The notes beneath the pieces are model-generated. The model worked only from the letters and a program-made list of their open reading frames with translations. It had not been told where the DNA came from and ran no database searches. From contig NZ_JROO01000024.1 of NCBI RefSeq assembly GCF_000826685.1, forward strand, positions 1-44,450: 44,450 bases of DNA, in the 5' to 3' direction. The translations under genes were made by a program, and so were the position numbers. Below, one piece after another: positions 13,741-32,555 of this stretch (position 1 is its first letter; each line of letters begins with the position of its first letter). The stretch comes from Streptomonospora alba (GTDB taxonomy: Bacteria; Actinomycetota; Actinomycetes; Streptosporangiales; Streptosporangiaceae).

Positions 13741-15258
13741 TTAATTCAGCACTAGCTGCACCTTTCTAGTGAGGGGGTGATCGGGGCCCAGGACGCGCAC
13801 GGCGTCGTCGCCGTGGAGGTCGCGCAGCCGGTTCCGGGCGTTGTCGAGCTCGCCCAGAGCCGCGTAGCAGCGGGCGAGTTCGAAACGGACCTCAATGGCG
13901 TCCTCTGTCTCCTCCTCGCCGAGTGCGCGGTAGTTGTCCAGCAGGTCGAGCAGCACCTCGACGGCCTCGGCGTAGCGGTCCAGCTCGACCAGGCACGCGG
14001 CCAGAGCGTCCCGGCAGTCGATGACGTCGGTCGCCCCCTCTCCGTGATGCTCGATGAGCAGCGGGAGCAGCCTCCGGTACTCCCGCTCGGCCTGGTCGAT
14101 GCGGCGGGCGTAGAACCAGGTGTCGGCCCGCATCCGGGTGAACCGCAGACAGACGTCGTCGGGAAGCTCCTCCGCGTTGACGAGCGCGTCGGACAGGACG
14201 TCGCCGGCCTGGATGAATCGCTGATCGTCCACGAGGCGGTCCACCTCGTCGTACACCTCATCCGGGTCGATCGGCCCGGTCGGATACGGCGCGGGGAAGG
14301 CGGGAGCGGCCGCCCGCGCGGTGCCGCCGCCGGTTCGGGAACGGGGCGCGAACGGGTACCGGAACGGGCGGGTCGGGTCGTGCTCCCCGCTCGTGTCGGG
14401 GGTTCCCACCGGTCGCGGTGCCGGCAGGAAGGGAGCCAGCCGGGTGAGGACCTCGTCGGCATGGGCCGGGCGCTCGGCCGGCTCCTTGTGGAGGAGGCCG
14501 GCTATGAGCGCGGCGAGCGGCGCGGGCGCGTCGTCGCGGAGCTCGCCCAGAGGGGGCGGTGCGGTGTGCACCTGGTGGAACAAGAGCGCCTCGGTGCGCG
14601 CGCCGGTGAACGGGGGACGGCCGGTGAGCACCTCGAACAGCAGGCAGCCCAGCGAGTACAGGTCGGTGCGCGCGGTGGCGTCTGCGCCGGTACAGACCTC
14701 GGGAGCCATGTACGGAGCGCTGCCGAGGGCCTCGTGGCTCCGGGTGAGCCGGGGGATGCTCGGATCGAGCAGGATCGCGATGCCGAAGTCGAGGAGTTTC
14801 ACGGCGCCGTCGGGGCCCACCATGACGTTGGGGGGCTTGATGTCGCGGTGCACCAGGAAGCCGGAGTGGGCTGCGGCGAGGACGGAGGCGAGCTGCGCCC
14901 CGATGGCGACCGCGCTCTCCACGGGCAGCGGGCCCCGCTGCGCGAGGAAATCGCCGAGGTTCCGCCCCTCCACGAGCTGCATGACGAGGTACAGTTCCCC
15001 GTTCTCGGTTCCGGCGTCGTAGACGGCCGGAACGCCGGGGTGCTCGACGCGCGCGGTCATCCTGGTCTCCCGCAGGAAGCGTTCGACCAGCACGCCGGCC
15101 TGCGTGTCGGAGGCGCTCAAGTCCTTTTGACTCATGAGTTTCACGGCGATCCGCCGGTCGAGCCGGCGGTCGTAGCCGCGGAGGACCACGCCCATGCCGC
15201 CCTGGCCTATGGGGGTGGTCAGTTCGTAGCGGTCGGCGATGACGCGTTGCTGGAACAT
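13741..15258 (-). CDS. Serine/threonine protein kinase with TPR-like C-terminal region
   Basis: 505 residues from ATG 15258. The kinase domain (residues 11-275) has every catalytic element: G-loop GQGGMG (18-23), Lys40, Glu64 in the C-helix, HRDIKPPN (137-144), DFG (157-159) and APE (185-187). No transmembrane segment follows, unlike PknB-type receptors. A Pro-rich linker leads to about 180 residues of helical repeats (AGDVLSDALVNAEELPDD, YRRLLPLLIEHHG, AEVLLDLLDNYRALGEEE, ELARCYAALGELDNARNRL), consistent with TPRs. It starts 41 bp after the stop of hsdR on the same strand, so the two are probably one operon. This suggests a kinase tied to restriction, perhaps phosphorylating a subunit or signalling infection. 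That role is inference. Confidence 0.88.
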   Translation of the reverse strand: MFQQRVIADRYELTTPIGQGGMGVVLRGYDRRLDRRIAVKLMSQKDLSASDTQAGVLVERFLRETRMTARVEHPGVPAVYDAGTENGELYLVMQLVEGRNLGDFLAQRGPLPVESAVAIGAQLASVLAAAHSGFLVHRDIKPPNVMVGPDGAVKLLDFGIAILLDPSIPRLTRSHEALGSAPYMAPEVCTGADATARTDLYSLGCLLFEVLTGRPPFTGARTEALLFHQVHTAPPPLGELRDDAPAPLAALIAGLLHKEPAERPAHADEVLTRLAPFLPAPRPVGTPDTSGEHDPTRPFRYPFAPRSRTGGGTARAAAPAFPAPYPTGPIDPDEVYDEVDRLVDDQRFIQAGDVLSDALVNAEELPDDVCLRFTRMRADTWFYARRIDQAEREYRRLLPLLIEHHGEGATDVIDCRDALAACLVELDRYAEAVEVLLDLLDNYRALGEEETEDAIEVRFELARCYAALGELDNARNRLRDLHGDDAVRVLGPDHPLTRKVQLVLN

Positions 15259-15299
15259 CGAAAAACCGTGATTCCGTGATTCCGTGGAGCAGGGGGCAC

Positions 15300-18200
15300 T
15301 CAGGCGGCGTCGCGGCGCAGCCGCCGGTAGGCGCGTCCGCGGGCCTTGCGCACGAACTCCTCCCGGAATTCGTCGTTGTCGCTGAACATCCGCAGGAACT
15401 CGGTCCGGCTCTCGGCGATCTCGTACACCTTGTCCTCGAAGGCGGTGTCGAAGACCAGGCCGAAGTCCTCCTCGCCGTTGGCGTCGGCGGCGCTGGCCAT
15501 CTCTTCGCCGAGGACCGCGTCGAGGGGGTCGCCCATGTCGCCCGGGTGCGCGTTCCCGCCGTACTTCTTGTTGAGCTCGTCGATGAGCTCCTGCAGGGAA
15601 CCGGTCTCGGGTTCCTCCGCGGTGCCGCTCCCGCCTTCGGAGAACCCGGGCAGCACCTGAGCGCCCTCGGAGGCCAGGCGTTCGTCGTGCACACCGGTCT
15701 GCTTGAGCCGGAACTGCTCGACGGCGGTCCCGGAGAGGTCGATGTCGGATTCCTCCTTGCGGTTGGGCAGCCGGTTCAGCAGCAGCTTGCCGTACTGGAA
15801 CAGCCGCTCCAGCCCGCTGTCGGTGAACGGCACGATCTGGGCGAGGAAGGCGTACATCCGGACGAAGTCCCGCAGGGCGGCGCGGAAGGACTCCGCGGCG
15901 TCGGGGTCCTCCTCCTGCAGCCGGACGAACCGTTTCGCGGCGGGTTCGGTGTGCCGGTTCATCTCCGCGTGCAGGCGCTGCCGTTCGCGGCCTTCGGCGG
16001 GGGAGCGGTCGGCGGCGGCGAACGCTTCGGCGAAGTCGGCGAGTTCGTGCTCGACGAGCAGCTGGTGCTCCATGACCTCGCGTTCGGCCGTGTAGAGCAG
16101 GTTGGGGTCGGTGGGGGTGGTCAGGGTGGTCTCGTAGTACCGCTGGAAGGACTTGCGGATGTCCTCGGCGTCGTTGGCGAAGTCGAGGACGAACAGGTCG
16201 TCCTGGCTTTTGGCGGGGTGGGTGCGGTTCAGCCGCGACAGGGTCTGCACCGCCTGCACGCCGGTGAGTCTGCGGTCCACGAACATGGTGGTCAGTAGCG
16301 GCTGGTCGAAGCCGGTCTGGTACTTGTCGGCGACGACGAGGATGCGGTACTCGGGTTTGCCGTTCGCCGGGGCGCCGGGGTCGTCGGCGCGCGTGTAGCC
16401 GAACCGTTCGGGCAGTTCCTTCTCGCCGAACCCGTTGAGGGTGGTTTCGGTGACCTTGTCGTCGGGGTTGCCGTCGACCTCCAGTTCGCCGGAGATCGCG
16501 ACGAGCGCCCTGCAGTCGCCGTATCCCAGTGTCGCCGCGTACTCGGTGATGGCCCGGTAGAGCTTCACGGCGTGGTTGCGCGACCCGGTGACGACCATCG
16601 CCTTGGCGCGGCCGCCCATGCGGCGCCGGGTGTCCCGGTGTACGTGCTCCACGATGACCTCGGCGCGCTGCTGCATGCTTTCGGGGCTGAGCATCGCGAA
16701 CCGCACCAGCGCCGAGCGGGCTTTCTTGGTGTCGACTTCGTGGTCGTCTGTGTCGGGGCCGGCCAGTCGGAAGTAGTTGGCGTAGGTGATGTAGTTGCCG
16801 AGCACGTCGAGGATGAAGCCTTCCTCGATGGCTTGGCGCATCGAGTAGGTGTGGAACGCCTCGGGGGTGCCGGTGACCGGGTCGGGGGTGCCGAACAGTT
16901 CGAGGGTTTTGGGTTTCGGGGTGGCGGTGAACGCGAAGAACGACAGTTCCGGGTGGCGGCCGCGCGCCAGAGCCGAGGCGGTCAGGGGGTCGCCGTCGGC
17001 GTCGATGTCGTCGCTGCCGAGTTTGCGCAGGGCCCGCTTCATGGCTGAGGCGGAGTCGCCGGACTGGGAGGAGTGGGCTTCGTCGGCGACGATCGCGTAC
17101 CGGTTCCCGCGCAGCGCGGTGACCTGTTCCAGCACATAGGGGAAGGTCTGCAGGGTCACGATGATGATCTTCGTGGTGGCGTCGGCGAGCGCCGCCGCGA
17201 GCTGGCCGGACTTGCTGCCGTCGGTGGTGGTGATGCGTTTGACCACGCCGGGGGTGTGGTCGAACTGGTAGATGGTGTCGCCGAGCTGCTTGTCCAGCAC
17301 GGAGCGGTCGGTGACCACGATGGTCTTGTCGAACACCAGCTGGTCGGCGCCCAGCCCGGCCCCGGGGTCGAGGTCGGCGGGGTCGGGCACCGTGTGCAGG
17401 GTGGACAGCCGGTGCGCCAGCCAGGCGATGGTGTTGGACTTGCCGGAGCCGGCGGAGTGCTGGACGAGGTAGTTGCGGCCGCTGCCGTGCCGGGCGACGT
17501 GGTCGGTGATCCGTTCCACGGCGTGCCACTGGTGGTAGCGCGGGAAGATGAGCCGCCGTTCGTGCGGGGGTGTCCTGGCGCCTTTCTCCGGCAGTTCCAG
17601 GTGCAGGAACCGGCGCAGCAGGTCGAGCCAGGTGTCGCGTCGCCAGATCTGTTCCCACAGGTAGCCGGTGGCGTACCCGGAGGGTCCGGCGGGCGGGTTG
17701 CCTTTGCCGCCGGAGACACCGGGGCCTCTGGAGCCGGTGTTGAACGGGAGGAAGGAGGTGGCGTCCCCGGCGAGCCGCGTGGTGAGGTGCACCTCGTCGG
17801 TATCGACCGCGAAGTGCACCAGAGCGCGTTTGCGCAGCAGCGGTTCGCGGGGGTCGCGGTCGGTGCGGTACTGCCGTTTGGCGTGTTCCACGGTCTGCCC
17901 GGTGAGGGGGTTTTTCAGCTCGGCGGTGGCGATCGGTACCCCGTTGCAGAACAGCACCAGGTCGAGGGATTTCTCCGGCGTTTTCGCGGAGTAGTGCAGT
18001 TGCCGGGTGACGGTGAGGATGTTGGCGCGGTATTCGGCGTGGGCGTCGGCGCCGCCCGCGCCGGCGGGTTTGAAGAACGCGAGCCGTAGCTGCACTCCGC
18101 GGTCTTTGACGGGGTGCCGCAGCACGTCGAGCGCTCCTCGCCGGTCGATCTCGCCGGCGACGTGTTCGGCGAAGCGCCGCTGGAATTCCGCGGTGTCGCC

Positions 18201-18398
18201 GCCGTAGAGTTCGGTGAGCCGTTCGCACTCGTCGGGCTGGGTGCGGCCGAGGAACTGGAACAGCCGCCGGGTGTCGAGCGCGAGCCGCTGGTCGTAGTCC
18301 TGCTGGAGTCCTTCCACCCATTCGCCGGTCCCGGTGAGCGAGTCGACGATGACCGTCTCGAACGCCGCTTCGTGATGCGGGGGTTTCGGCGAGGGCAT
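15300..18398 (-). CDS. hsdR: Type I restriction enzyme, R (translocase/nuclease) subunit
   Basis: 1032 residues. It has an N-terminal PD-(D/E)xK nuclease with LDLVLFCNGVPIATAELKNPLTGQT (Asp146, Glu160, Lys162). Walker A follows in HSAGSGKSNTIAW (residues 314-325), then DEAH (439-442) and FFAFTATPKPKTLELFG (motif III). The second RecA lobe shows YRILVVADKYQTGFDQPLLTTMFVDR and QTLSRLNRTHP (motif VI). It would translocate and cut unmodified DNA with HsdM/HsdS, whose genes lie separately at 24775-28052. The C-terminal 250 residues include a low-complexity acidic stretch (EGGSGTAEEPETG). The kinase gene follows directly. The 194-bp region upstream is a divergent promoter shared with the gene at 18593. 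Confidence 0.95.
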   Translation of the reverse strand: MPSPKPPHHEAAFETVIVDSLTGTGEWVEGLQQDYDQRLALDTRRLFQFLGRTQPDECERLTELYGGDTAEFQRRFAEHVAGEIDRRGALDVLRHPVKDRGVQLRLAFFKPAGAGGADAHAEYRANILTVTRQLHYSAKTPEKSLDLVLFCNGVPIATAELKNPLTGQTVEHAKRQYRTDRDPREPLLRKRALVHFAVDTDEVHLTTRLAGDATSFLPFNTGSRGPGVSGGKGNPPAGPSGYATGYLWEQIWRRDTWLDLLRRFLHLELPEKGARTPPHERRLIFPRYHQWHAVERITDHVARHGSGRNYLVQHSAGSGKSNTIAWLAHRLSTLHTVPDPADLDPGAGLGADQLVFDKTIVVTDRSVLDKQLGDTIYQFDHTPGVVKRITTTDGSKSGQLAAALADATTKIIIVTLQTFPYVLEQVTALRGNRYAIVADEAHSSQSGDSASAMKRALRKLGSDDIDADGDPLTASALARGRHPELSFFAFTATPKPKTLELFGTPDPVTGTPEAFHTYSMRQAIEEGFILDVLGNYITYANYFRLAGPDTDDHEVDTKKARSALVRFAMLSPESMQQRAEVIVEHVHRDTRRRMGGRAKAMVVTGSRNHAVKLYRAITEYAATLGYGDCRALVAISGELEVDGNPDDKVTETTLNGFGEKELPERFGYTRADDPGAPANGKPEYRILVVADKYQTGFDQPLLTTMFVDRRLTGVQAVQTLSRLNRTHPAKSQDDLFVLDFANDAEDIRKSFQRYYETTLTTPTDPNLLYTAEREVMEHQLLVEHELADFAEAFAAADRSPAEGRERQRLHAEMNRHTEPAAKRFVRLQEEDPDAAESFRAALRDFVRMYAFLAQIVPFTDSGLERLFQYGKLLLNRLPNRKEESDIDLSGTAVEQFRLKQTGVHDERLASEGAQVLPGFSEGGSGTAEEPETGSLQELIDELNKKYGGNAHPGDMGDPLDAVLGEEMASAADANGEEDFGLVFDTAFEDKVYEIAESRTEFLRMFSDNDEFREEFVRKARGRAYRRLRRDAA

Positions 18399-18592: not shown

Positions 18593-18862
18593 GTGGAACG
18601 CCTGTGGGATGTCGACCTTTCCGCTCGTTTCGCGCGGCGTATGGGCAAGACCGCAGCCGAACTCGACAAGAGCCGGGTCAACGACGACTGCCCGGAGATC
18701 TGGGAACTCGACAACGGTGATGTGGCGATCGTGGGGCGCGACGTCACCGAGCGCTTCAGCGACCGCCTCCCGGCCGGTCTGAGCATAAGCGCCGATGAGC
18801 GGCTGGTGGTCATCCCCGGTGAGATGCTGCGCGCCGCCAAGGAGGACATCGCCGATGTTTGA
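18593..18862 (+). CDS. Small conserved actinobacterial protein upstream of DUF6879
   Basis: 89 residues from GTG 18593, which has an ideal GGGAGGA six bases upstream. It begins VERLWDVDLSARFARRMGKTAAELDKSRVNDDCPEIWELDNGDVAIVGRDVTERF. I recognise the type as a small protein commonly encoded before DUF6879 genes, but its function is not known. There is no signal peptide or membrane segment. The last codons overlap the next gene: its ATG at 18855 precedes this stop (ATGTTTGA), so translation is coupled. It diverges from hsdR. Confidence 0.8.
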   Translation: MERLWDVDLSARFARRMGKTAAELDKSRVNDDCPEIWELDNGDVAIVGRDVTERFSDRLPAGLSISADERLVVIPGEMLRAAKEDIADV

Positions 18863-19472
18863 CGGTATCCGTGCCGCCGAGGGCACCTACCTGGACCGCC
18901 GCGCCTACCACGCCGACGCCGCCGCCCTGCGCGCGAACCCGGCCATGACCGGCGAGGTCTGGAAACTGGAGCGGTCGCAGTTCTTCCACGAGACCGGGGA
19001 CCCCGCCTGGGAGGCGTTCTGCTCCGGCGACTGGGGCCGCGTCCTGGAGATCTTCGAGAGCGAGCGCACCGCCATCCGGGGCGAGGCCGAGGAGTACGCG
19101 CGTCTGGGGCTTAGGCTGCGGCGGCTGCGTATCGTCGAACTCCCGCCCACCCCCTACCTCCGGTGGGAGATGTACAGTCATCGGATATTCGTCGAGAGCG
19201 GTTTCGAAATCGGAGTACTCGACGCCGGCCGGGTCCGCTGGTTCGAGCGGGAACGGCCCCTACCGGAACTCATGGTGTACGGCGGAGAAGTTGTCTACCA
19301 AGTCCACTACGACGAGCATTGGGCCCCGGCCGGGGCGAAGCGGATCGATGATCCGGCGCTGGCGCGTGCCGCCGCACGCACTGTCTCCGCTCTGTACCGG
19401 CAGGCCGAACCGTTCATGGAGTTCTTCGAACGGGAGATCGCTCCCCGGACTCCGGAGCCCGTCACGGCCTGA
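18855..19472 (+). CDS. DUF6879-family protein
   Basis: 205 residues from ATG 18855, overlapping the preceding gene by 8 bases. Characteristic blocks are WKLERSQFFHETGDPAWEAFCSGDWGRVLEIFESERTAI, LRRLRIVELPPTPYLRWEMYSH and GEVVYQVHYDEHWAPAGAKRIDDPA, ending in a helical tail (ALYRQAEPFMEFFER). DUF6879 proteins are widespread in actinomycetes, usually beside small XRE- or DUF397-type regulators, and have no settled function. The frame upstream of 18855 runs over the previous gene and is not used. Confidence 0.85.
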   Translation: MFDGIRAAEGTYLDRRAYHADAAALRANPAMTGEVWKLERSQFFHETGDPAWEAFCSGDWGRVLEIFESERTAIRGEAEEYARLGLRLRRLRIVELPPTPYLRWEMYSHRIFVESGFEIGVLDAGRVRWFERERPLPELMVYGGEVVYQVHYDEHWAPAGAKRIDDPALARAAARTVSALYRQAEPFMEFFEREIAPRTPEPVTA

Positions 19473-19527
19473 GCCGAGGCGGTGGACGCTCGGGCCGTCC
19501 TCCGCCGCCGATCGCGGAAGCACCCGG

Positions 19528-20367
19528 CCGCTGACGGTTGCCACGGTTCTGCTGCTCGTCGTGGTGGCGGTCGCGCTCGTCGGCGTTTCCCCGCTGGGGT
19601 TGCGGGCCTTCGGCGGGGCCGACGGGGAGTGGGAGCGGTTGAGTCTCATCGGGCAGACCTACGGCGCGGTCTCCGCGCTGATCGCGGTCCTGGCACTGGT
19701 CGGTGTGGCGGTGACGCTGGTCTTCCAGGCGCGGGAGACGCGCCACTCGGTCGAGGAGAGCCGCCGCCAGGCGATGGGCGAGCTGCTCCAAATGGCCATG
19801 GACGATCCCGATCTCGACGAGTGCTGGGGACCGGTGCCCGGTGACGAGGATCCCAAGACCCGCAAGCAGCAGCTCTACACGAACATGATCGTGACGCAGT
19901 GGGGAACGGCGTTCCGGGCGGGCGCGATGCCGGAGAGGCGGCTGCGGGCGAACGCCGCCGAGATGTTCCGCGGGCCGGTGGGGCGTGCCTACTGGGCTGC
20001 CGCCCGCGAGTCCCGGCTGAGGACGACCGGCCATCGGTTGGACCGGCGGTTCAACGAGATCCTCGACGAGGAGTATCAAAAGGCGGTCCCTGCTGAGCCC
20101 GCGCAGCACGGCGGCAACCGGGAGGGCGCGCCCCCGGAGGGAGAGGAACGCACCCGCAGCGGCGCGGGGCGCCTGCTGCTCGCTTTGGCGAGCGGAGCGG
20201 CGATCGCCGGTGCCGCCGCCGGAATCGTCCAGTACCTGCGCCGGAATCGTCATCTCTCGCAAGGAACATCAGGACCTACTCAAGAAGTGTCGCCTTGTCC
20301 CGAAGGCCCGCCTTCAGGGCGTCGTCGCGGACGCTTTTCAGCGTGGCCTTACCGCCGGCTTTCTTGA
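19528..20367 (+). CDS. DUF6082-family membrane protein (start uncertain)
   Basis: The protein body starts near PLTVATVLLLVVVAVALVGVSPLGLRAF, a first membrane segment. A second follows (YGAVSALIAVLALVGVAVTLVFQARETRHSVEESRRQAMGELLQMAMDDPDLDECWGPV). The soluble part has QQLYTNMIVTQWGTAFRAGAMPERRLRANAAEMFRGPVGRAYWAAARE, as in DUF6082. A third hydrophobic stretch (LLLALASGAAIAGAAAGIVQYLRR) lies near the end. No good start codon exists in this frame just before the first segment. GTG 19481 is in another frame (VDARAVLRRRSRK), so a frameshift near 19500-19530 is possible. The 3' end overlaps the convergent DUF262 gene by about 90 bp. Confidence 0.7.
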   Translation, partial: PLTVATVLLLVVVAVALVGVSPLGLRAFGGADGEWERLSLIGQTYGAVSALIAVLALVGVAVTLVFQARETRHSVEESRRQAMGELLQMAMDDPDLDECWGPVPGDEDPKTRKQQLYTNMIVTQWGTAFRAGAMPERRLRANAAEMFRGPVGRAYWAAARESRLRTTGHRLDRRFNEILDEEYQKAVPAEPAQHGGNREGAPPEGEERTRSGAGRLLLALASGAAIAGAAAGIVQYLRRNRHLSQGTSGPTQEVSPCPEGPPSGRRRGRFSAWPYRRLS

Positions 20368-22483
20368 CGTGCCAGAAGGTCCAACCGTTGGCGGACTGCC
20401 GGTTCAGGACGAACATGGCCGCCGATGACACGGCGGTGAAGATCTCCCCGGAGTCGACCTTCACATGGCCGTCGCCGAGGATGGTGGCGGTATAGCGCTC
20501 ACCGGCGCGGGTGCCGAATATCTCCTGCCCGGCAGCCAGGTAGCCGTTCTGGATGAGTTCGCCCACGGTGACGTCGTAGCGCGCTCGGCCTCGCCGGGCG
20601 GCACGCCGCTCGGGCGTCACCTGCTTGGGGATCTTGAATCCGTAGTTCTCCGGTGCCCACACCAGTTCGCACAACCGCTGGTACAGCTTCTGGCGCTCGT
20701 CGATGGCTTTCGCGGTGAACTCGGAGTCGTCCTTGTAGCTCTGGAACAGTTTCGCCAGCCCGTACTCCCTGTTGTTGCGGAGCTTGCGGAAACCGGGGTT
20801 CCTGGCGCGGTGGAACTCCGGGTGGAGTGAGGCGGCGAGCACGTTCTGCTGTCGGTATGCCGCGATCTTCTCGCTGAGGGGAACGTCCCGGTAACTCGCG
20901 TTCTCGCTCTTGTTCAGGAGCAGCAGGGCGCCGAGCCGGTCACGCAGGGCGTTGAACTTGGCGAGTGTCGGGGCTTCGGACTGGTAGCGCTCGGGCTTGT
21001 TGGCCCAGATGTGTTCGATCTCGTACGGGCGCTGCCGGTCCAGGTAGCTGGCGATGGGGTCGGGTTTGCCGCATTCCTTCTCAACCCAGGCGGTGACCCG
21101 GGCGAGCAGGTAGCGCACCTGTTTCCTGTTGTCGTGCCGCAGGCCGAACTTGGTCGCGGTGATCCCGGTGAAGTCATCGTCGAGTCCGGCGATCTCCTGG
21201 CTGAGCAGGTTCCTGACGTCCTCACTGGTTCGGCAATCGCGGAGCCGCGGCACCAGATGGGCGACGTCGTCGTCCAGGGCGTCGGGTTGGCGCGCCTTGT
21301 CGTTCACGAAGCGGCGAACGTAGAGGAGGTCGAGGTATCCAGCGACCAGGACCGCCTTGCTCCAGAACTCGTCGAGGTCGTCGGTGGGGGAGACGGTGGC
21401 GAGGATTGCGGTGTACTGCTGGTCGAGGCCGTTCACCGCGTTGTGGAAGAGGGGCTCACGGTCCTTGTAGGGCTCTTTCGCGGCCCGCAGCAGGGAGACG
21501 TACCGGTCGGCGAGACCGCAGATTTCCTTGGTGACGAAGCGGTGGTACGAGTCCTTGCCGTGCAGGTTGAGCCGGCCGTGGTTCTCGCGGACCCATTCGT
21601 GCGCCGCCGTGCCGATCCTGTCGGTGTCGCTGCCCGGTCCGGTTTCGGAGAGATCGGCGTACTTGGCGGTCAGCATGGCGGTGATGAAGTCGCTGGGGGT
21701 GTAGGGCTCGTTGGCGATGATCCGGGCGAGCATCGTGCGCCATTCCACGTCGAGTTGGTGACGGTCGTGCGCGTGGGAGAGCAGGAAGCCCTTCAGCAGT
21801 TCGATGGGGTCGAGCTTGACGCCCCGGTCGTTCATCGTCTTGAAGATCTCCCAGCCCTGTTCGCGGCTGTCGGCTTTGATACCGACGAGGCACACGCGGT
21901 CGCGGAGCCAGTCCAGGAAGGGGAGGAGGCTTTCACCGCGTAGCTCGGGCGGGAAGGTCTCGTCGAGGTCGCGGGCGCGTTCGTAGAGGTTGCGCACCGA
22001 GGGCGTGGAGTTCTCCGGGAGGGTGTAGGGCCCTCCCTTGTAGATGGAGTCGAGTAGTGCGCTCCGCTCGTCGATGGCGATGGTGTAGGTGCGCCGGCCG
22101 TGTTTGGAGACGCGGATCAGTTTGTCGAGTTCGCTCAGGTCGTCGTCGGCGTCGATCTGCTGCTCGACGAGCAGTCGGCGGAGGTGCATCAGCAGCAGGT
22201 GGAGCGTGGTGATGCGCTGCTGGCCGTCGACGAGGTAGGTGGTCTCACCTTCCTCGAAGTACACGAACGGCCCGAGGAAGTACGGGGCGTACTCGGACGT
22301 CTGGGACCTGCTGTGCTCGGGGTGCCACGAGGCGGCGAACCGCTGGTACAGGTCCTCGACGAGGGAGCCGACGTGCTTGCGGGTCCAGACGTATTCACGC
22401 TGGTAGTAGTCCAGTCCGAACCGCTGCCCGGAGAAGAGTTGCTCGATGGTGAAGCCGTGACCACTGATGGGGGATTCGGCCAT
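20276..22483 (-). CDS. DUF262-DUF1524-RAMA protein (GmrSD-like type IV restriction candidate)
   Basis: 735 residues from ATG 22483; the open frame beyond it lacks conservation. The N-terminal DUF262 (GmrS-like nucleotidase) has FGLDYYQREYVW (23-33), LVDGQQRITTLHLLL (84-98) and MNDRGVKLDPIELLKGF (217-233). The DUF1524 nuclease-like module has YEIEHIWANKPERY (487-500) and LGALLLLNKSENASYRDVPLSEKIAAY (517-543). The C-terminal 70 residues (ERYTATILGDGHVKVDSGEIFTAVSSAAMFVLNRQSANGWTFWHVK) match the RAMA domain, linked by prior comparative genomics to reading modified DNA. GmrSD enzymes cut glucosylated phage DNA, so this one may target modified invaders. It lies between hsdR and hsdSM. Confidence 0.88.
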   Translation of the reverse strand: MAESPISGHGFTIEQLFSGQRFGLDYYQREYVWTRKHVGSLVEDLYQRFAASWHPEHSRSQTSEYAPYFLGPFVYFEEGETTYLVDGQQRITTLHLLLMHLRRLLVEQQIDADDDLSELDKLIRVSKHGRRTYTIAIDERSALLDSIYKGGPYTLPENSTPSVRNLYERARDLDETFPPELRGESLLPFLDWLRDRVCLVGIKADSREQGWEIFKTMNDRGVKLDPIELLKGFLLSHAHDRHQLDVEWRTMLARIIANEPYTPSDFITAMLTAKYADLSETGPGSDTDRIGTAAHEWVRENHGRLNLHGKDSYHRFVTKEICGLADRYVSLLRAAKEPYKDREPLFHNAVNGLDQQYTAILATVSPTDDLDEFWSKAVLVAGYLDLLYVRRFVNDKARQPDALDDDVAHLVPRLRDCRTSEDVRNLLSQEIAGLDDDFTGITATKFGLRHDNRKQVRYLLARVTAWVEKECGKPDPIASYLDRQRPYEIEHIWANKPERYQSEAPTLAKFNALRDRLGALLLLNKSENASYRDVPLSEKIAAYRQQNVLAASLHPEFHRARNPGFRKLRNNREYGLAKLFQSYKDDSEFTAKAIDERQKLYQRLCELVWAPENYGFKIPKQVTPERRAARRGRARYDVTVGELIQNGYLAAGQEIFGTRAGERYTATILGDGHVKVDSGEIFTAVSSAAMFVLNRQSANGWTFWHVKKAGGKATLKSVRDDALKAGLRDKATLLE

Positions 22484-22633
22484 GCGGGGCGACGCTCCTC
22501 GTTGATCGACGCGCTGCACAGGGGACGCTGATCGTCGTACCCCTTGGACGGGTGGAGCGAATCCCGGTTGGTGACCTGACCCGGCCACTGCGACTCCCGA
22601 GCCACCGGTATTCGGCCGACGAGTCGAAGAGTT

Positions 22634-23694: not shown

Positions 23695-23824
23695 GCGTTC
23701 CTCCGTGGCTGGTTCGCGGGCGTAGCGGGACGACTGGGAGTACAGACTTCGCGAATGTGGACATGTTTCTCGGGTTTCGAGTTTTTCTGGGAAAGCCTGT
23801 CACGTTGCTTCGGTGTTGAGCTAC

Positions 23825-23846
23825 TGTTGCGGCAATTATAGCAACA
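23825..23846. promoter_or_regulatory. Dyad/promoter region between XRE and the RsbW-like unit
   Basis: TGTTGC (23825-23830) and GCAACA (23841-23846) form a perfect 6+6 dyad around the AT-rich centre GGCAATTATA. On the minus strand this centre contains TATAAT just before GCC, a good -10 box. Placed 24-45 bp before the ATG at 23870, it may be the operator of the XRE protein. Confidence 0.5.
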
Positions 23847-23869
23847 CTTCAACGTTGGGAGGAGTCAGC

Positions 23870-24774: not shown

Positions 24775-26061
24775 TCACCCCACGGCCGCCCGCCCCGCTG
24801 TCGTGACATCGAGCTGGCCGGTGACAGCGGCAGTGATGAGCGCCTGGCGTCGCTCAGCGAGGAGGGAGAGCTGGCGGTCGATTGCGTCTTTGGCTTCTCT
24901 GATGCTTTCCAACGACTTATAGACGGCGGAGACCAGTTCCCGCTGTCGGGAGACCTCAGGTAGCGGAATGGGGAACGCAAGAACCTTGCTGCTGTTGGTC
25001 GAAGCGAGATTTGTGCTGCGCACACCGGTGCTCTCGAAATAGCAGCGTCCATGCAACGACCGTGTGAGAAGGGCTAGGTAATCGGGATCGAGATGGTCTT
25101 TAGACGGGCGCAGAGCGAATATGTGATTTTGGTGTAGCGCGCCGGGGATCTCGCCGCGCCAGACCGTCCCTCGTCCCAATTTGTCGATGTCTCCTCCTTC
25201 GGTCATGAGAACATCGCCTGCCCGCAGTGTGGAACGCGCAGCGACTGGAACCGGGACCGTGATCTGCGACACGGAAGAAAGGTCCACATGATCCGCTTGT
25301 ACGTTGGCGACACGCAAATAGGGAAGGGTGACGCTTCTTTCGCCAGTATCCCTGGACTCGTCGAGGGTAACACCGCCCTGGATTCGACATACGTACCCGA
25401 GTCGGACCAATGGAGTGGAATCCTCCAGTCGTGGGAGCCATTTCCAGGGATATGTTCCGAGTGGCGAGGTGAGGATTCCCGGAAATAAGGACTCCGATAC
25501 TTCTGCATAGGCGCGTTCGGCGAGTTTGTTGGACTGGCGTTCACGGGTTTGGATTAGCCGATCAATCCGCCCCGTCTCGGTATCGAGAAAGTCGGCGATG
25601 CGTCGTTGGTCGTCCATGCTGGGATTGGGTAGGGTGAGGTTGCCAACTTGTTCGGCGTTGAGGTTTGATTGTGTGTTGCTTCGCGCGAATTGATGGATAT
25701 TGGGGCGGATGCTTATCAATGCATAATTGAGGAAGCGTCCGTCAACTGTTCTGTTTGGGGTAATACCGAGGATTGCCTGGTTCCAAGTTCCGCTCGGTTC
25801 AAGCCAAGCGGTGTGCCCTAAACTGGCGTACATGCTGAAAAGTAGTGTTTTGGGAGGGGAAGGTCTGAGTCGCGCGGCGACTAACCCCTTCTTAGTGATC
25901 CGGCTATTTGTGCCAGTGACCTTATCGTGGGTTGACATATCAGATATGGAAACCCAGGGGTATCCGTAATCGTCATCAGACCAGTATTCTTCTACGTCTG
26001 ATTTCGGTGTTCCCCCGGCTGTTAGTTTGGCTATGTATTTAAGGCGAACGGTTGGCCACAT
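24775..26061 (-). CDS. hsdS: Type I restriction-modification, S (specificity) subunit
   Basis: 428 residues from ATG 26061, whose A overlaps the TGA of hsdM (TGATG). There are two target-recognition domains. The first has TAGGTPKSDVEEYWSDDDYGYPWVSISDM, FSMYASLGHTAWLEPSGTWNQAILGI and QSNLNAEQVGNLTLPNPSMDDQRRIADFLDTETGRIDRLIQT. The second has RLGYVCRIQGGVTL, GDVLMTEGGDIDKLGRGTVW, and a C-terminal coil ESIREAKDAIDRQLSLLAERRQALITAAVTGQLDV. It sets the bipartite DNA target. Bases 25450-26050 are visibly poorer in G+C than the flanks, as expected for a frequently exchanged specificity gene. Confidence 0.95.
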   Translation of the reverse strand: MWPTVRLKYIAKLTAGGTPKSDVEEYWSDDDYGYPWVSISDMSTHDKVTGTNSRITKKGLVAARLRPSPPKTLLFSMYASLGHTAWLEPSGTWNQAILGITPNRTVDGRFLNYALISIRPNIHQFARSNTQSNLNAEQVGNLTLPNPSMDDQRRIADFLDTETGRIDRLIQTRERQSNKLAERAYAEVSESLFPGILTSPLGTYPWKWLPRLEDSTPLVRLGYVCRIQGGVTLDESRDTGERSVTLPYLRVANVQADHVDLSSVSQITVPVPVAARSTLRAGDVLMTEGGDIDKLGRGTVWRGEIPGALHQNHIFALRPSKDHLDPDYLALLTRSLHGRCYFESTGVRSTNLASTNSSKVLAFPIPLPEVSRQRELVSAVYKSLESIREAKDAIDRQLSLLAERRQALITAAVTGQLDVTTAGRAAVG

Positions 26062-28052
26062 CACTCCGTCACCTCCCCCAACAAACACTGGATCTCTCCC
26101 TCAAGCTCCTTAAGCTCGGCATCGATCTCTTCCAGTGGTCTTGGAGGGGTGTATTGGTAGAAATGCCTGGTGAAGGGAATCTCGTAGCCCACCTTGGTCT
26201 TACTCTCGTCGATCCAGGCGTCAGGGACGTGCGGGAGGACCTCGCGCTCCAGGTAGGCGTGGATGTCCTCGTCCAGCGGAACGTTTTCGTAGTCGCGCAG
26301 GTCCGTGTCGGGAAGGACATCGCCCTTCTTGTCCTTCTGCAGCTCGCCTTCGGGGTCGCTGACGCCGACCGCGTTCCACACCTGCTTGGTGACGGCGGCC
26401 GGGATGCCGGTCAGCCCCGCGTCGGCGTAGGCGGCCTTCAGCGTGGCGTCGAAGTCGGCCCTGCTGTAAACCGGATCCCGGCCGGCCAGAGGGCGCAGCG
26501 CGGCGAGGACCTTGTCCCGCAGATCGGTGTCCTTGGCGAGGGTCTTGTTGGCCTCCAGCTCGGCCAGCGCCTCCTCGGTCACCTCGAAACGCAGCCGCAG
26601 CGGGCGCTCGACCGTGATTCGCCGGTACCCGAAATCCCTCGGCCGGAACACCTTCACCCGCGAGTCCGACTCCGCCTCGGAGAGGGCGTTCACGTACACC
26701 TTCGTCAGCTCTGCGATCCGGTCGTCCGGGATGAACTTGCGCTTGTCGCCGAGACTCTTGCGCATCTTCTCCCACTCCTCGCGGGCGTCCAGCAGGATCA
26801 CCCTGCCCCTGTGGGCCGGATCCTTCTTGTTCGACAGGATCCAGAAGTACGTAGAGATCCCCGTGTTGTAGAAGAGCTGGTCCGGCAGGGCCACGATCCC
26901 TTCCAGCCAGTCGTTCTCCAGGATCCACCGGCGGATATTGGACTCGCCCGACTCCGCACCGCCCGTGAACAGCGGGGAACCGTTGAACACGATCGCCACG
27001 CGCGCTCCCCCCTCGTCGGGTGTTCGCATGTGGTGGATCATGTGCTGCAAAAAGAGCAGCGAACCGTCGTTGATCCGGGGCAGCCCCGCCCCGAACCGGC
27101 CCCGGTACCCCTTGTTCTCGTGCTCGGCCTCGACCTCGGCGCGGGCCTGCTTCCACTCCACCCCGAACGGCGGATTGGCCAGCAGGTAACTGAACGACCG
27201 TGCGGCGTGCCGGTCGTCGGTGAAGGAGTTGCCGAGCTTGATGTTGTCGGCCTGCTCACCTTTGATCAGCGTGTCCGAGCGGCTGATCGCGTAGGACTCC
27301 GGATTCATCTCCTGGCCGAACAGCTTCACGGTCGCGTTCGGGTTGTGCTCGGTGATGAAGTCCTCGGCCGCGGTGAGCATGCCCCCGGTTCCGCACGCCG
27401 GGTCCAGCACGGTGAAAACCCTGTTCGGGGTGAGTAGATCGGCCTCGTCCGGCGACAGCAGCAGCTTCACCATCAGGTTGATGACCTCTCGCGGGGTGAA
27501 GTGCTCACCGGCGGTCTCGTTGGAGATCTCGGAGAACCTGCGGATCAGCTCCTCGAACAGGTAGCCCATTTGATGGTTGGACACCCGCTCCGGGCTCAGA
27601 TCCACCTCGGCGAACTTGCCCGCCACCTGGTACAGCAGTCCCGACTTCTCCAACCGGGCGATCTGGTTGGTGAAATCGTAGTGCTCGAAGATGTCCGCGG
27701 CCGTCGTGGAGAAACCGCCGATGTAGGTACGCAGGTTCCGCGCGATGACGTGCTCGTCGGTCTCGGACCCCACGATCCTCGTCAGGCTCAGATTCGACTC
27801 GTTGAAGAAGCTCAACCCCAGCGGCCGGACGAACGACAGGAGCTGGCGCTCCCGGTTCTCGATCCCCTTCTCCTTGAGCTCGTCGCGCTTTTCGATGATG
27901 GCGGCCTTGTGCGGCTCCAGCACGCACTCCAGCCGCCGCAGCACGGTGAACGGCAGCACCACCCGGCCGTACTCCGACTGCTTGTAGCTGCCGCGCAGCA
28001 GGTCGGCCACCGACCAGAGGAAGCCGGCGAGCCGCTGGTGCTCAGAACTCAT
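26061..28052 (-). CDS. hsdM: Type I restriction-modification, M (N6-adenine methylase) subunit
   Basis: 663 residues with the HsdM_N helical domain (SVADLLRGSYKQSEYGRVVLPFTVLRRLE), SAM motif I LDPACGTGGMLTAAEDFI (216-233) and catalytic motif IV NPPF (293-296). The C-terminal coil ARPLEEIDAELKELEGEI-type stretch contacts HsdS. AAGGAAAA precedes the ATG. With HsdS it protects host DNA by methylating adenine; with the distant HsdR it forms the restriction complex. It lies 93 bp after the HTH-methylase gene, probably in the same transcript. Confidence 0.96.
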   Translation of the reverse strand: MSSEHQRLAGFLWSVADLLRGSYKQSEYGRVVLPFTVLRRLECVLEPHKAAIIEKRDELKEKGIENRERQLLSFVRPLGLSFFNESNLSLTRIVGSETDEHVIARNLRTYIGGFSTTAADIFEHYDFTNQIARLEKSGLLYQVAGKFAEVDLSPERVSNHQMGYLFEELIRRFSEISNETAGEHFTPREVINLMVKLLLSPDEADLLTPNRVFTVLDPACGTGGMLTAAEDFITEHNPNATVKLFGQEMNPESYAISRSDTLIKGEQADNIKLGNSFTDDRHAARSFSYLLANPPFGVEWKQARAEVEAEHENKGYRGRFGAGLPRINDGSLLFLQHMIHHMRTPDEGGARVAIVFNGSPLFTGGAESGESNIRRWILENDWLEGIVALPDQLFYNTGISTYFWILSNKKDPAHRGRVILLDAREEWEKMRKSLGDKRKFIPDDRIAELTKVYVNALSEAESDSRVKVFRPRDFGYRRITVERPLRLRFEVTEEALAELEANKTLAKDTDLRDKVLAALRPLAGRDPVYSRADFDATLKAAYADAGLTGIPAAVTKQVWNAVGVSDPEGELQKDKKGDVLPDTDLRDYENVPLDEDIHAYLEREVLPHVPDAWIDESKTKVGYEIPFTRHFYQYTPPRPLEEIDAELKELEGEIQCLLGEVTE

Positions 28053-28145: not shown

Positions 28146-30206
28146 TCATCCGCCGGGAGTGCCGTCCGGCCCGTCGGCGATCGGGCGGAGCGCGCCGTGG
28201 ATCAGGCCGTCGACCATCGTGCGCCGCGCCTCGTCACCCGCCCGGTACAGCCCGTCAAGGGCGGTGCGGAACTCATCCAGCCGGCGGAAGGCCGCCCCGA
28301 TCCGCTGCTGGTCCAGCAGCGGCAGGCGCGGTAGCTCCACCCGCCGGACGTCGACGAGGGAGGAACGGTGCAGTGAGGAGGAGCGCTGGGCCACCTCGGA
28401 GCCGCTGAACACGGCGGCCAGGAACCACGGATCGACCGCGTCGGGGTCCGGGCGCACGACCACTACGTTGCCCGCGACGGGTGTTCCCGCTTCGGTGTCT
28501 GCGACCACCCGAGCCGCCGGGCGGGCGAGGGGCGCGCGCGGCACCAGCACATCACCCGGTCGGGCCCGCACCGTGTCCGCACCCTCCGGTATCCGCTGCG
28601 ACGGCGGGCCCCCGGACAGCACGTCCTTGACCGTGAACGCCAGAAGGGCCTCCGGCCCGGCGGCGTCGTCCTCCCCGCGGCGGTGCGACGGTGTCCAGAG
28701 CAGCTCCACCTGCCCGCGGCGCACCAGATCATGCACGGTCACCGCGGCCCGCGACCCGGGCGACGCCTCGGCGACCTCCGGCAGCAGCCCCGGGAGCCGC
28801 CCGGCGAGCCCGGCCAGGGCCTTACGGGCCTCACCGAGCCCGGACACATCGGGGGCGGCCGGGCTGAGGTGCCGGGCCGGGGTGACATCCACGTCCTCGC
28901 CGAGAAGGTCGACCACCGGCACCGCCCGTCGGTAACCGGCCTCCTCGCCGCCGGTCTCCCGGCCGGCCGCGAACGGCTCGTAGGCGTCCAGCACCGCCTC
29001 GCGCACCTTCGGCCAGGCGGGTTCGGCGACCGCCGCGGCGGCATCCACCATCAGCACATCGGAGGGCGCGGGCTCGTTCTCGGCGGGGCGCCGCAACACC
29101 CACAGTGTGAGGGGAACGCCCATCGGGGGTGCGAGCCCGGCGGGCAGGGCGACCACCGCGCGCAACGCCCCCCGGCGCAGCAGCTCCGAGCGGATCCGGC
29201 GCCCGGAACGCCGCGACGCCACCCCTGGCGGGAGGACCACGACGACCGCGCCGCCGGGCCGGACACGGGCGAGTGCGTGCTGCACCCAGGCGAGTTCCGA
29301 GTCCCCTTTCGCCGGCAGCCCGTACTCCCAGCGGGCGTCGAAGCCCAACTCTTCGACACCCCAGTCCCGCTGGTTGAACGGCGGGTACACCAGGACCGCG
29401 TCCGCAGACAGATCGGGGAAGGCGTCTGCGCGCAGCGAATCGCCCGCGCGGATATCTGGTTCGGCACCGGCCAGCGCCAGCCGCACCCTGCCCAGCCGTG
29501 CCAAGCCCGCGGCCAACTCCTGACCGACGGGACGCACCCCCCGGCCGCGCAGGAACGCCGTGCGCAGCAGGGTGGCCGCCCCGCACGCCGGGTCGAACAC
29601 GGTGCCCCCGGGGCGGCCGGCGAGATCCACCATCAGTTCGGCGAGCTCATCGGGGGTGGCGGTGAACTGGCGGGTGACCGAGGTGAGGAAGCGCTCGTAG
29701 AGCCGCTCGAAGGCCTCCTGCGGGCCGCCCTCCTCACGGGCCAGCTCGGCGAGGGCCTCCAGTGCCTCCCGGAACGTGTGAACAGGGGGGAGCTCCGGTG
29801 CGCCGGTGTCGGGGACGGCTGTGAACACCGCCCGGATACGGTCGTCCAGCTCGGCGTCCGCCACTGCCGCCGTGTCGCGCTCCGAGGCCGCCACCAGCAG
29901 TGCCGCACCCGCGAACGCCACCGCGTCGGCGGTGTCCAGCCGGCCCCGCGCGGCGTCCATGAGCTGCCACACCGACTCCACGCTCGGCGCGCGGGCGAGC
30001 TTGCCCTGCTGCTCCAGCCAGCCGCGCACCTCGCGCAGGTCGAACGACGGGCTGGTGTCCGTGCCGCCCACCGGTTCCGGGAAATCGCCGTACCTGCGCC
30101 GCCAGTTGCTCACCGCGGCGCGCCCCACCCCCGCCAGGCGGGCGATCTCGGCCGCGCTGACGGTCGCGGCGTCGCCGTCGCCGGTGTCCGGCATCGATCC
30201 TGCCAT
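28146..30206 (-). CDS. HTH + N6-methylase-like protein with altered catalytic motifs
   Basis: 686 residues from ATG 30206. An HTH sits at residues 16-37 (VSAAEIARLAGVGRAAVSNWRRR). A methylase-like core follows: FERLYERFLTSVTRQFTATPDELAELMV, then VFDPACGAATLLRTA (motif I, 203-217) and VLVYPPFNQRDWG (271-283). Active N6-adenine methylases need the Asn of NPPF/NPPY; here it is Tyr (codon TAC, not AAC), and the second Gly of motif I is Ala. The C-terminus resembles an S-type half (VDPWFLAAVFSGSEVAQRSSS, LPLLDQQRIGAAFRRLDEF). It may therefore bind DNA without methylating it, perhaps as regulator or decoy subunit. It is upstream of hsdM and divergent from the DUF6119 gene. Confidence 0.82.
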   Translation of the reverse strand: MAGSMPDTGDGDAATVSAAEIARLAGVGRAAVSNWRRRYGDFPEPVGGTDTSPSFDLREVRGWLEQQGKLARAPSVESVWQLMDAARGRLDTADAVAFAGAALLVAASERDTAAVADAELDDRIRAVFTAVPDTGAPELPPVHTFREALEALAELAREEGGPQEAFERLYERFLTSVTRQFTATPDELAELMVDLAGRPGGTVFDPACGAATLLRTAFLRGRGVRPVGQELAAGLARLGRVRLALAGAEPDIRAGDSLRADAFPDLSADAVLVYPPFNQRDWGVEELGFDARWEYGLPAKGDSELAWVQHALARVRPGGAVVVVLPPGVASRRSGRRIRSELLRRGALRAVVALPAGLAPPMGVPLTLWVLRRPAENEPAPSDVLMVDAAAAVAEPAWPKVREAVLDAYEPFAAGRETGGEEAGYRRAVPVVDLLGEDVDVTPARHLSPAAPDVSGLGEARKALAGLAGRLPGLLPEVAEASPGSRAAVTVHDLVRRGQVELLWTPSHRRGEDDAAGPEALLAFTVKDVLSGGPPSQRIPEGADTVRARPGDVLVPRAPLARPAARVVADTEAGTPVAGNVVVVRPDPDAVDPWFLAAVFSGSEVAQRSSSLHRSSLVDVRRVELPRLPLLDQQRIGAAFRRLDEFRTALDGLYRAGDEARRTMVDGLIHGALRPIADGPDGTPGG

Positions 30207-30267
30207 GGTGTTGACCCTATCGCAGCCGTATGTGCAGGGGAACACCCGTACACAGAAGTATGTTTGT

Positions 30268-30285
30268 TGACTACGTTCACAGTCA
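30268..30285. promoter_or_regulatory. Dyad in the HTH-methylase / DUF6119 divergent promoter
   Basis: TGACT (30268-30272) and AGTCA (30281-30285) flank 8 bp in the 164-bp intergenic region. That region is also noticeably richer in A+T (30255-30300) than its surroundings. It is a plausible site for the HTH domain of the adjacent methylase-like protein. Confidence 0.4.
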
Positions 30286-30370
30286 TAGTTTACATTGACG
30301 GAGTCGCCGCAGAGATTGTGTTCGGCGATGTGTTCACGACAGTGTCCCGCTACTTCCCCGGGAGATCGCA

Positions 30371-32068
30371 ATGACCCGAACGGCACTTCCCAGCCCCCAG
30401 CCGCCCCAAGCCGCCCGCGTCCGCGAGGTCACGCTGTACCGGCTGACCGGTGTCGGCGCGGACGAGCAGAGCATGCGCGCCGTCTTCGACGAAGCCGGAA
30501 CCGCCCGCCGAGAGCTCGACCTCAGCACAACCCGCATCGACGGCATGCCCGCGGTGGTGCTGTTCGGGATGCGCGGCGGAGAACGCCCGCCCGACTGGCA
30601 GGCCGACGCCACCCGGACCACCGATGTCGACCTGGACCTGCGCGCGACCTCCCCGGTCGCCGCCGTCCTCGTCGCGGTGGACGACCGCGTCTACGCGTTC
30701 AGCTACGGGCACGGACACCACCTCATCCCGAGAGACCTCAGGGATCCGGACTTCGGACGGACGTTCGCCGCCTGCGCCCTCGACCCGGCGACGGTGGCCA
30801 CGGTCAACACCCGCGACATGGACACCGTGAACCGCTACGGCAGTATCCACATCCCCAAGGGGCGGGAGGTGCGCACCTTCGGGCTCCAGCACGAAAGGGA
30901 GCTGGTGAACCGCCTCAAAGCCAGGTGCGGGCTGAACGAGCTCACCGCCGCGCGGGGCGGTGAGAAGGCGCGCTTCGCCGAATGCGGGGACGCCATCCGC
31001 ACCCACTTCGGAGTCGAGCAGGCCGACCTCGTCAACGACATCCGATTCATCGCCGCGACCGTGGAAGAACACTCCGTGCGCAAGGAGCTGCGGTTCCTTC
31101 AGGACCGCAAGGAGGTCCGCTCCCCTCAGCAGGCCGAGACGCTCTGGTCGCTGGTCGAGGAGGGGCTGCGCGACCCGGAGTCCATCGGGCTGGCGATCTC
31201 CCCGCCGCTGGACGTCTTCGACCAGCTTGAGGAGGCGCGGTCCTTCCAGGTCCGCATCGGGCCCGCAACGTGCCCGCTGCGTACCGAACTCCGGGTGGAG
31301 GACCTGGTGGCGCGGCTCCGCCACCTGAGGAAGGGGACCCTCGCCCAGGCCCTCAAGAACGGGTGGATCAAGCTGTTCGAGGACGTCGGCGGCCGGCGGG
31401 AGATCGCCACGCACCGCAACCTGTGCTACTGGATCGAGGCCACGGTGTCGCCGGGAAGCGAGATGTACGTGCTGCGGGACGGGCGCTGGTACGAGTACGG
31501 CCCCCGCTACCTGGAGGAGGTGCGCAGCGAGGTCGCGGACCTCCTCGCGCGCGGCTCCTGCCTGGACCTCCCCGACTGGCCGGCCCGGCTGGCATACCAG
31601 GGCGACAAGGAGTCCCCCGAAGCCGCCTACAACCGGCACGCCGGCAAGACGCAGGGCTACCTCTGCCTGGACAAGAACCTCGCCCGCACCGGGGTCCACT
31701 CCGGCAAGGGAGTGGAGCTGTGCGACATTCTCGGCCCGGGCAACGAGCTGGTCCACGTCAAGCAGGGGGCGTCGGCATCGGGCCTGAGCCACCTGTTCAA
31801 CCAGGCCAAGTCGGCCGTGGAGAGCCTGCACTACGAGAAGCAGGCCCGCGAGTGGTTCGCCAACGCCGTGGCCCGCATGGAGCCCGAGCGCGATCTCACC
31901 GGTTTCCGGCCGAGGACCGTCGTCTTCGCCATCCGGCTGGCCAAGCACTCCCAGATCACCGTGAACAACCTCTACCCGCTGGCCCAGGTCGAGCTGTACC
32001 GCACCGCCGTGGCGCTGCGCCGGTGCGGGATCGAGGTGGAGGTCGCCGCCATCGGGCACGGCGGCTGA
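30371..32068 (+). CDS. DUF6119 / TIGR04141-type protein
   Basis: 565 residues from ATG 30371. It resembles the sporadically distributed TIGR04141 (DUF6119) proteins of defence loci. It opens with VREVTLYRLTGVG and shows VDDRVYAFSYGHGHHLIPRDLRDPDFGRTFAACALDPATVATVNTRDMDTVNRYGS and HRNLCYWIEATVSPG. The most conserved block is YLCLDKNLARTGVHSGKGVELCDILGPGNELVHVKQGASASGLSHLFNQAKSAVESL. Family members often sit beside restriction-modification genes; the mechanism is undetermined. It diverges from the HTH-methylase and ends before a strong hairpin at 32127-32153, marking the island's right edge. Confidence 0.82.
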   Translation: MTRTALPSPQPPQAARVREVTLYRLTGVGADEQSMRAVFDEAGTARRELDLSTTRIDGMPAVVLFGMRGGERPPDWQADATRTTDVDLDLRATSPVAAVLVAVDDRVYAFSYGHGHHLIPRDLRDPDFGRTFAACALDPATVATVNTRDMDTVNRYGSIHIPKGREVRTFGLQHERELVNRLKARCGLNELTAARGGEKARFAECGDAIRTHFGVEQADLVNDIRFIAATVEEHSVRKELRFLQDRKEVRSPQQAETLWSLVEEGLRDPESIGLAISPPLDVFDQLEEARSFQVRIGPATCPLRTELRVEDLVARLRHLRKGTLAQALKNGWIKLFEDVGGRREIATHRNLCYWIEATVSPGSEMYVLRDGRWYEYGPRYLEEVRSEVADLLARGSCLDLPDWPARLAYQGDKESPEAAYNRHAGKTQGYLCLDKNLARTGVHSGKGVELCDILGPGNELVHVKQGASASGLSHLFNQAKSAVESLHYEKQAREWFANAVARMEPERDLTGFRPRTVVFAIRLAKHSQITVNNLYPLAQVELYRTAVALRRCGIEVEVAAIGHGG

Positions 32069-32530: not shown

Positions 32531-32555
32531 GCCGACCGCCCCGACGACGGCCGCG

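Follow-up and report, generated by a model that had tools for sequence, protein, structure and literature searches.

Type I restriction-modification genes that are followed directly by a protein kinase gene raise the question of whether the kinase, and the other genes around them, belong to one defence system. In this study, we analysed such a locus of Streptomonospora alba in a stretch of 44,450 nucleotides, referred to here as the window, which is one whole contig (NZ_JROO01000024.1) of a 5.9-Mb draft genome. A preliminary description of the window had proposed a possible defence island made up of hsdR, hsdM and hsdS, a soluble Ser/Thr kinase (KIN), a helix-turn-helix (HTH) methylase-like protein with altered motifs (HTHM), a DUF6119 gene and a DUF262-RAMA gene, and all of the genes that it named were found between positions 13741 and 32068. 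Comparison of gene neighbourhoods across genomes shows hsdM, hsdS, hsdR and KIN to be inherited together, and by the same comparison these four, with HTHM, have the appearance of a conserved unit, not a chance cluster. We give roughly even chances to the reading that this is a type I restriction-modification system of a mobile kind which carries a kinase, KIN, as its switch, and which in our comparison was confined to actinobacteria.

The locus consists of the following features.

13741..15258, minus strand: KIN, a cytosolic Ser/Thr kinase with a C-terminal TPR-like region (Pkinase E 3e-46; TPR_12 E 3e-6, under its cut-off)
15300..18398, minus strand: hsdR, type I restriction subunit (HSDR_N nuclease, SWI2_SNF2 translocase and ResIII by Pfam)
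24775..26088, minus strand: hsdS, type I specificity subunit (Methylase_S E 5e-19; PADLOC Specificity_I E 1e-171)
26061..28052, minus strand: hsdM, type I methylase (N6_Mtase and HsdM_N; PADLOC MTase_I E 8e-270)
28146..30194, minus strand: HTHM, the HTH-methylase (N6_Mtase E 6e-33; HTH matches weak and sub-cut-off)
30195..30370, no strand: intergenic region between HTHM and DUF6119, which holds the operator-like TGTGTTCACG
30371..32068, plus strand: DUF6119/TIGR04141 gene (PF19614 E 5e-94; TIGR04141 E 2e-95, above cut-off)

Transcription on the minus strand follows the order HTHM, hsdM, hsdS, a 6.4-kb insert, hsdR and KIN, and DUF6119 diverges from HTHM. The hsdM and hsdS genes overlap. KIN carries the K, HRD and DFG motifs and lies on the same strand as hsdR after a gap of 41 bp; with a top 19-residue hydropathy of 1.5 no membrane segment is evident, and the earlier description of a soluble kinase next to hsdR was borne out. 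A 1571-aa frame (13741-18456) was rejected as a single protein, as the KIN frame continues through the out-of-frame hsdR and the two are separate genes.

The restriction and modification subunits have the domains and motifs expected of a type I enzyme. The matches of hsdR to HSDR_N (E 2e-13) and SWI2_SNF2 (E 1e-20) are those of a type I nuclease joined to a superfamily 2 (SF2) translocase; the match to TIGR00348 reached E 5e-47 yet stayed under the cut-off (160.8 of 284.55 bits). HsdR motor motifs were conserved in the variants listed, and the ELK motif was present in the variants listed, which cover 23 of 49 rows. In the window, the catalytic motifs of HsdM (DPACGTGG and NPPF) are intact, as they are in the variants listed, covering 46 and 45 of 47 rows; an active-looking HsdM is thus present together with an HsdS. 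HTHM combines an HTH part, an HsdM fold and an HsdS-like tail that ends in a final long helix. Its motif I (DPACGAA) and motif IV (YPPF) in the window depart from the forms of an active N6-adenine methylase (DPxCGxG and (N/D)PP(F/Y/W)).

The order-wide comparison drew on 249 genomes, 60 of which had an HsdR match (E <= 1e-50), and the neighbourhoods of 48 close matches were annotated; the hsdR of G234, present as two contig-end fragments, was left out of this set. The usual order was DUF6119 (optional and divergent), HTH-methylase, hsdM, hsdS, optional cargo, hsdR and KIN, and it held across genera and families. In 39 of the 48 loci KIN came immediately after hsdR on the same strand, at a gap of 1-202 bp, and in 41 it lay within four genes of hsdR; the recurrence of kinase with hsdR, which had been named earlier as a test, is thereby seen. 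Six of the 7 remaining loci had a KIN match downstream on the same strand, at 3.1, 3.6, 4.8, 4.9, 7.6 and 11.8 kb, and in the seventh (L157) the contig ends 1.5 kb after hsdR. Among 15 loci with a distant HsdR (40-44% identity), none had KIN within four genes of hsdR. HTHM lay directly upstream of hsdM in 39/48 loci by gene calls, with a 4-bp overlap in 12, and in L145 by profile; in the HTHM counts, the companion loci L151, L186 and L190 stand in for L152, L120 and L119. In G213 (L152) KIN was found in two overlapping pieces, and in G162 (L112) HTHM and hsdM each occupied two frames, which points to decay or sequencing error.

The kinases that accompany hsdR are related to one another. In a quick tree, 3 changes were needed to separate 64 hsdR-linked kinases from 28 generic kinases encoded in the window genome or in G130, against a mean of 27 after shuffling, and the hsdR-linked kinases nearly form one clade in it. 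Distances between proteins correlated with those of HsdR at 0.916 for KIN (n=42), 0.913 for HsdM (n=45) and 0.855 for HTHM (n=39), and KIN with HTHM at 0.891 (n=35); the values for DUF6119 (n=20) were 0.796 with HTHM, 0.702 with KIN and 0.682 with HsdR. For all of these the Mantel P was 2e-4, the lowest value that the test can give.

The closest named relatives by HsdR were Nocardiopsaceae bacterium YIM 96095 (96%) and Allosalinactinospora lopnorensis (90%). HsdR was missing from all 5 same-genus genomes drawn, yet a 97% identical copy was present in a genome of another genus, and it is therefore probable that the locus moves as a unit. A plasmid search with HsdR returned 761 records, all below 60% identity, with a Streptomyces mirabilis plasmid (50%) ranked first.

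The comparison was then widened to 80 named loci beyond the order, of which L286, L306 and L307 dropped out of the HsdR tree. KIN was within 3.5 kb of hsdR in 26 of 28 actinobacterial named loci, from Streptomyces, Micromonospora, Catellatospora, Kribbella, Frankia, Amycolatopsis and other genera, and in the remaining pair, L251 and L263, a KIN match lies 9 kb downstream; no fewer than 4 of these 28 loci are on contigs that also appear in the order set. The same HsdMSR family was found in many phyla. In the non-actinobacterial loci (49 tree rows), KIN was present in none of 38 with enough downstream sequence and HTHM in none of 36 with enough upstream sequence, and for this reason the two look like an actinobacterial addition to a widespread HsdMSR core. 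On the HsdR tree (FastTree), in which KIN was coded present only if within 3.5 kb and displaced copies were coded absent, a minimum of 6 changes is needed for KIN and of 4 for HTHM.

The pair of HTHM and KIN also occurs outside these type I loci. The match listings hold the best 150 for each protein, and the counts derived from them are lower bounds. Among the best 150 KIN matches of the order set, at least 43 lay within 12 kb of a close hsdR, and at least 32 had no hsdR but a listed HTHM no more than 1.5 kb away, HTHM being upstream on the same strand in 31 of these 32; the other 75 had no listed hsdR or HTHM partner. Ten of the 75 were fetched: five adjoin HTHM (two of them also DrmC), four directly follow DrmC and one lies beside PglW. 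HTHM stands between DrmC and KIN in the DISARM-type loci L322, L335, L339 and L341 (DrmC by PADLOC; in L341 the gene was seen in part only), with the gene order DrmA-DrmB-DrmC-HTHM-KIN-UvrD helicase-GmrSD_N in L322 and L335, and KIN directly follows DrmC without HTHM in L336, L337, L338 and L342. L331 and L332 carry another HsdR, a YgjP-like metallopeptidase, HTHM and KIN. The order in L170 is DUF6119-HTHM-kinase-DrmD-like-methylase, and its kinase falls outside the KIN clade. Three non-hsd rows, L194, L206 and L240 (the context of the last being L322), are nested in that clade; HTHM adjoins the kinase in L206 and L240 and is about 8 kb away in L194. The occurrence of the pair in DISARM loci as well suggests that HTHM and KIN behave together as a transferable cassette. 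Tentatively, and at somewhat less than an even chance, we propose that they form a phospho-signalling cassette which would serve mechanistically different DNA-targeting defences (type I, DISARM and the other-HsdR/YgjP-like loci): HTHM, as the DNA reader, would pass a 'foreign DNA' signal to KIN, and KIN would license the nuclease machinery of whichever defence it is attached to. If it is true that the cassette is shared, type I and DISARM systems, now treated separately, would be linked, and search programs would gain a new marker.

Other settings of these genes were also observed. In L340, KIN diverges beside the PglW (BREX type 2) gene. The HTHM-KIN pair is present in L343, L344, L345, L333 and L334, where neither hsd nor drm genes were noticed within the short stretch fetched; in L333 and L334 a convergent UvrD-type helicase gene lies by the pair.

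The DUF6119 gene gave full-length profile matches above the cut-offs (316.2 bits against 27, and 320.3 bits against 35 for TIGR04141). The pairing of HTH-methylase with DUF6119 recurs, as the preliminary description had expected: DUF6119 diverges from HTHM in 22 of 49 loci, which are 20 fetched loci, the window and G199, the last by coordinates upstream of hsdM. G052 entered this count through HTHM, its hsdR being on another contig, and 16 of 48 DUF6119 matches were left out of the examination. By its distribution, DUF6119 is an optional module. It may have a C-terminal PD-(D/E)XK domain, a putative assignment for which the VIA list is weak evidence; the best Foldseek match reached E 1.5e-3 with a TM-score of 0.09. 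What stands divergent from HTHM is not constant: in L116, L117, L131, L130, L138 and loci like them, this gene is DUF6119, NYN-like, RNase H-like or other; a DnaQ-type exonuclease with BRCT, a Druantia III-like DruE with a 1134-aa partner and a Ppl-like protein were also seen there. Should the cassette reading hold, the DUF6119, NYN, RNase H and DnaQ-type genes would be exchangeable added effectors under HTHM control. DUF6119 was also observed next to type I loci in which HsdR is distant and two genes are HsdM-like (L162, L163, L165, L168 and L169); it diverges from an HTHM-like gene in L162, L163 and L165, and KIN was not found in about 4 kb downstream of hsdR in these three.

The region upstream of HTHM holds candidate binding sites. 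Two palindromes are enriched there, GTTGATNNNATCAAC in 13 of 61 intergenic regions against 3 of 301 controls and TGTGTACACA in 17 of 61 against 15 of 301, an enrichment that is post hoc, as both were chosen by eye from the same 61-region set with near-copies included. We regard them as putative candidate operators for HTHM. In the window, TGTGTTCACG at 30329-30338 has 2 mismatches to TGTGTACACA, a motif picked after looking; no inverted repeats were found in the HTHM/DUF6119 intergenic region, which has two imperfect direct repeats only.

The stretch between hsdS and hsdR contains the following genes.

18795..24726, no strand: cargo stretch between hsdS and hsdR, outside the core
20276-22588, minus strand: DUF262-RAMA, cargo (GmrSD_N, GmrSD_C and RAMA)
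22846-23694, minus strand: XRE/DUF5753 regulator, cargo
24253-24726, plus strand: HATPase_c_2 gene, cargo
within 18795..24726: DUF6879 gene and DUF6082 gene, cargo

The gap of about 6.4 kb that had been described between hsdR and hsdMS is present in the window, but the split is not a trait of the system. hsdS adjoins hsdR (<=150 bp) in 27 of 42 loci, hsdS having not been seen in 6 of the 48, and the 6.4-kb split is therefore a cargo insertion, of the kind found in 14/42 loci, where the two genes are more than 1 kb apart. On the same count, DUF262-RAMA and the other genes of 18795-24726 were rejected as core. For DUF262-RAMA, earlier placed within the system, G031, which is the nearest relative, was the only one of the 48 order loci with a full-length match between hsdS and hsdR; its relatives were found in 18/249 genomes, and weaker DUF262-type matches (31%) lay between hsdS and hsdR in two non-actinobacterial loci, L290 and L314. 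Genes of the DUF262 type at this place are known as RloF in passages of PMC4619093, and the window DUF262-RAMA is a cargo gene of this kind. Relatives of the XRE/DUF5753 regulator, in many cases alongside a small partner gene, were recurrent cargo in the hsdS-hsdR insert and the flanks of many loci.

The flanking genes are those of ordinary metabolism; 9 of 10 scanned had a Pfam match, including short-chain dehydrogenases, MFS transporters and FAD oxidoreductases. At 32099-33036, a heavy-metal-associated domain (HMA) gene was observed beside DUF6119, followed by an open reading frame that by eye resembles the C-terminal part of a P-type ATPase and had no match in a Pfam scan at E 0.001. This reading frame is perhaps a remnant at the island edge.

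How type I restriction spares a newly entered host is unsettled, and a kinase directly after hsdR makes the question genetically testable. Passages of a 2025 review (PMC12707154) name, as controls that spare a new host, proteolysis by ClpXP, the supply of subunits and, as a possibility, phosphorylation of the restriction subunit, and cite, as reference 343 (2007), EcoKI HsdR phosphorylation, which serves as a precedent. From the composition, order, co-inheritance and motif states observed above, we infer kinase licensing and every signalling step of the following model. By analogy with other type I systems, HsdM and HsdS would mark host sites and HsdR would translocate on and cut unmarked DNA. 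KIN, with its TPR region as the input, would phosphorylate a partner in the complex, most likely HsdR or HTHM, and this may license or restrain restriction, for instance on infection or during establishment of the locus in a new host. HTHM, taken as a DNA reader of HsdM-S-like build with an HTH and, in many copies, an altered catalytic site, would act as site reader and as promoter-bound regulator feeding KIN, and DUF6119 may be an auxiliary nuclease under HTHM control.

Several observations weigh against this model. The altered motifs described for HTHM are those of the window copy and the family is mixed, with alteration in 19 of 40 hsd-linked copies and intact motifs in 21, so that a 'dead methylase' fails family-wide. 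KIN does not need HTHM, because five Streptomyces loci (L253, L255, L256, L257 and L262) have KIN without it, and HTHM is also missing in L124, L125 and L157. The displacement of KIN by 3-12 kb in six loci means that a tight operon is not required. The support of the KIN clade is 89, not starred, and the clade includes the 3 rows not linked to hsdR. An independent-pairs test of KIN (counted within 3.5 kb) against HTHM found 4 pairs (median p 1), with gains mostly on one lineage, and thus did not separate the association of the two from shared descent; high Mantel values are expected for any jointly inherited genes.

An unlikely alternative to the switch model is that the restriction complex serves as a sensor and KIN as the executor of an alarm, phosphorylating host targets and arresting the infected cell instead of regulating HsdR. 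The kinase domain of KIN matches the PADLOC defence kinases PD-T4-6 (E 4e-88) and mad6 (E 2e-67), but these matches span the common kinase domain; KIN occurs in DISARM loci too, which allows for a target other than the type I enzyme, whereas a co-divergence of KIN with HsdR that is as tight as that of HsdM suits a partner within the system. That the kinase is incidental seems improbable to us: HTHM has its own HTH and S-like tail, it adjoins KIN without hsdM in the fetched stretch of some loci, and its motif IV is non-canonical (YPPF in the window, EPPF and HPPF elsewhere). An ordinary defence island, in which unrelated defence genes are clustered without joint function, would account for the high variability of the hsdS-hsdR cargo and of the gene divergent from HTHM, and for the Druantia III-like genes beside HTHM in some loci, and it is true for DUF262-RAMA and may be so for DUF6119; for KIN and HTHM it is largely refuted already, as the order and strand of HTHM-hsdM-hsdS-hsdR-KIN recur over about 50% protein divergence and the KIN clade is near-exclusive, and we hold it to be quite improbable for the locus. 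A divergent MADS, suggested by HTH, methylase, specificity and kinase parts that parallel Mad1, Mad2, Mad5 and Mad6 in PADLOC matches, is very improbable, since the curated cut-offs are missed by far (MAD2 30.9 for HTHM and 55.6 for HsdM of 720 bits; MAD6 145.2 of 460 bits for KIN) and mad3, mad4, mad7 and mad8 are not among the families listed for the island proteins (<=25 per protein), the 10 flank genes having been scanned by Pfam only.

Membership of the window locus in MADS, BREX or DISARM was rejected on PADLOC and NCBIfam scans. MADS (Mad1-8, with the kinase Mad6) likewise unites HTH, methylase and S-subunit components with a Ser/Thr kinase at a single locus, but the window locus has HsdR, which MADS is not known to have. 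BREX type 2/Pgl (with the PglW kinase) is similar in coupling a Ser/Thr kinase to methylation-based defence, and in its presence in actinomycetes; KIN scored 66.7 of 990 bits against PglW, and PglZ and PglX were not among the families listed. Some DISARM loci (DrmABC with DrmD or a methylase) carry the HTHM-KIN pair, or KIN after DrmC, but their nuclease and methylase parts differ from those of the window locus, and no Drm family (DrmA, DrmB or DrmC) was among those listed for the island proteins. RloF/GmrSD genes are found between hsdS and hsdR, the place of the window DUF262 gene, but this gene is cargo outside the core. The non-canonical M1M2S of PacII (m6A/m4C) also has two unlike HsdM-type proteins at a single type I locus, whereas HTHM bears an HTH as well as an S-like tail of its own, with motifs altered in about half of copies. 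The set as a whole had been described as a combination without a name as a system; this stands, in that no PADLOC or NCBIfam model listed names it, and searches of open-access literature on DUF6119, TIGR04141, type I restriction with kinase and kinase with DISARM genes brought up no description of it. This suggests that HTHM-hsdMSR-KIN is a variant of type I restriction-modification not previously named in models or open-access text. With type I restriction-modification it shares the R, M and S subunits and their conserved motifs, and it differs in adding an upstream HTHM and a dedicated downstream kinase, here in actinobacteria only.

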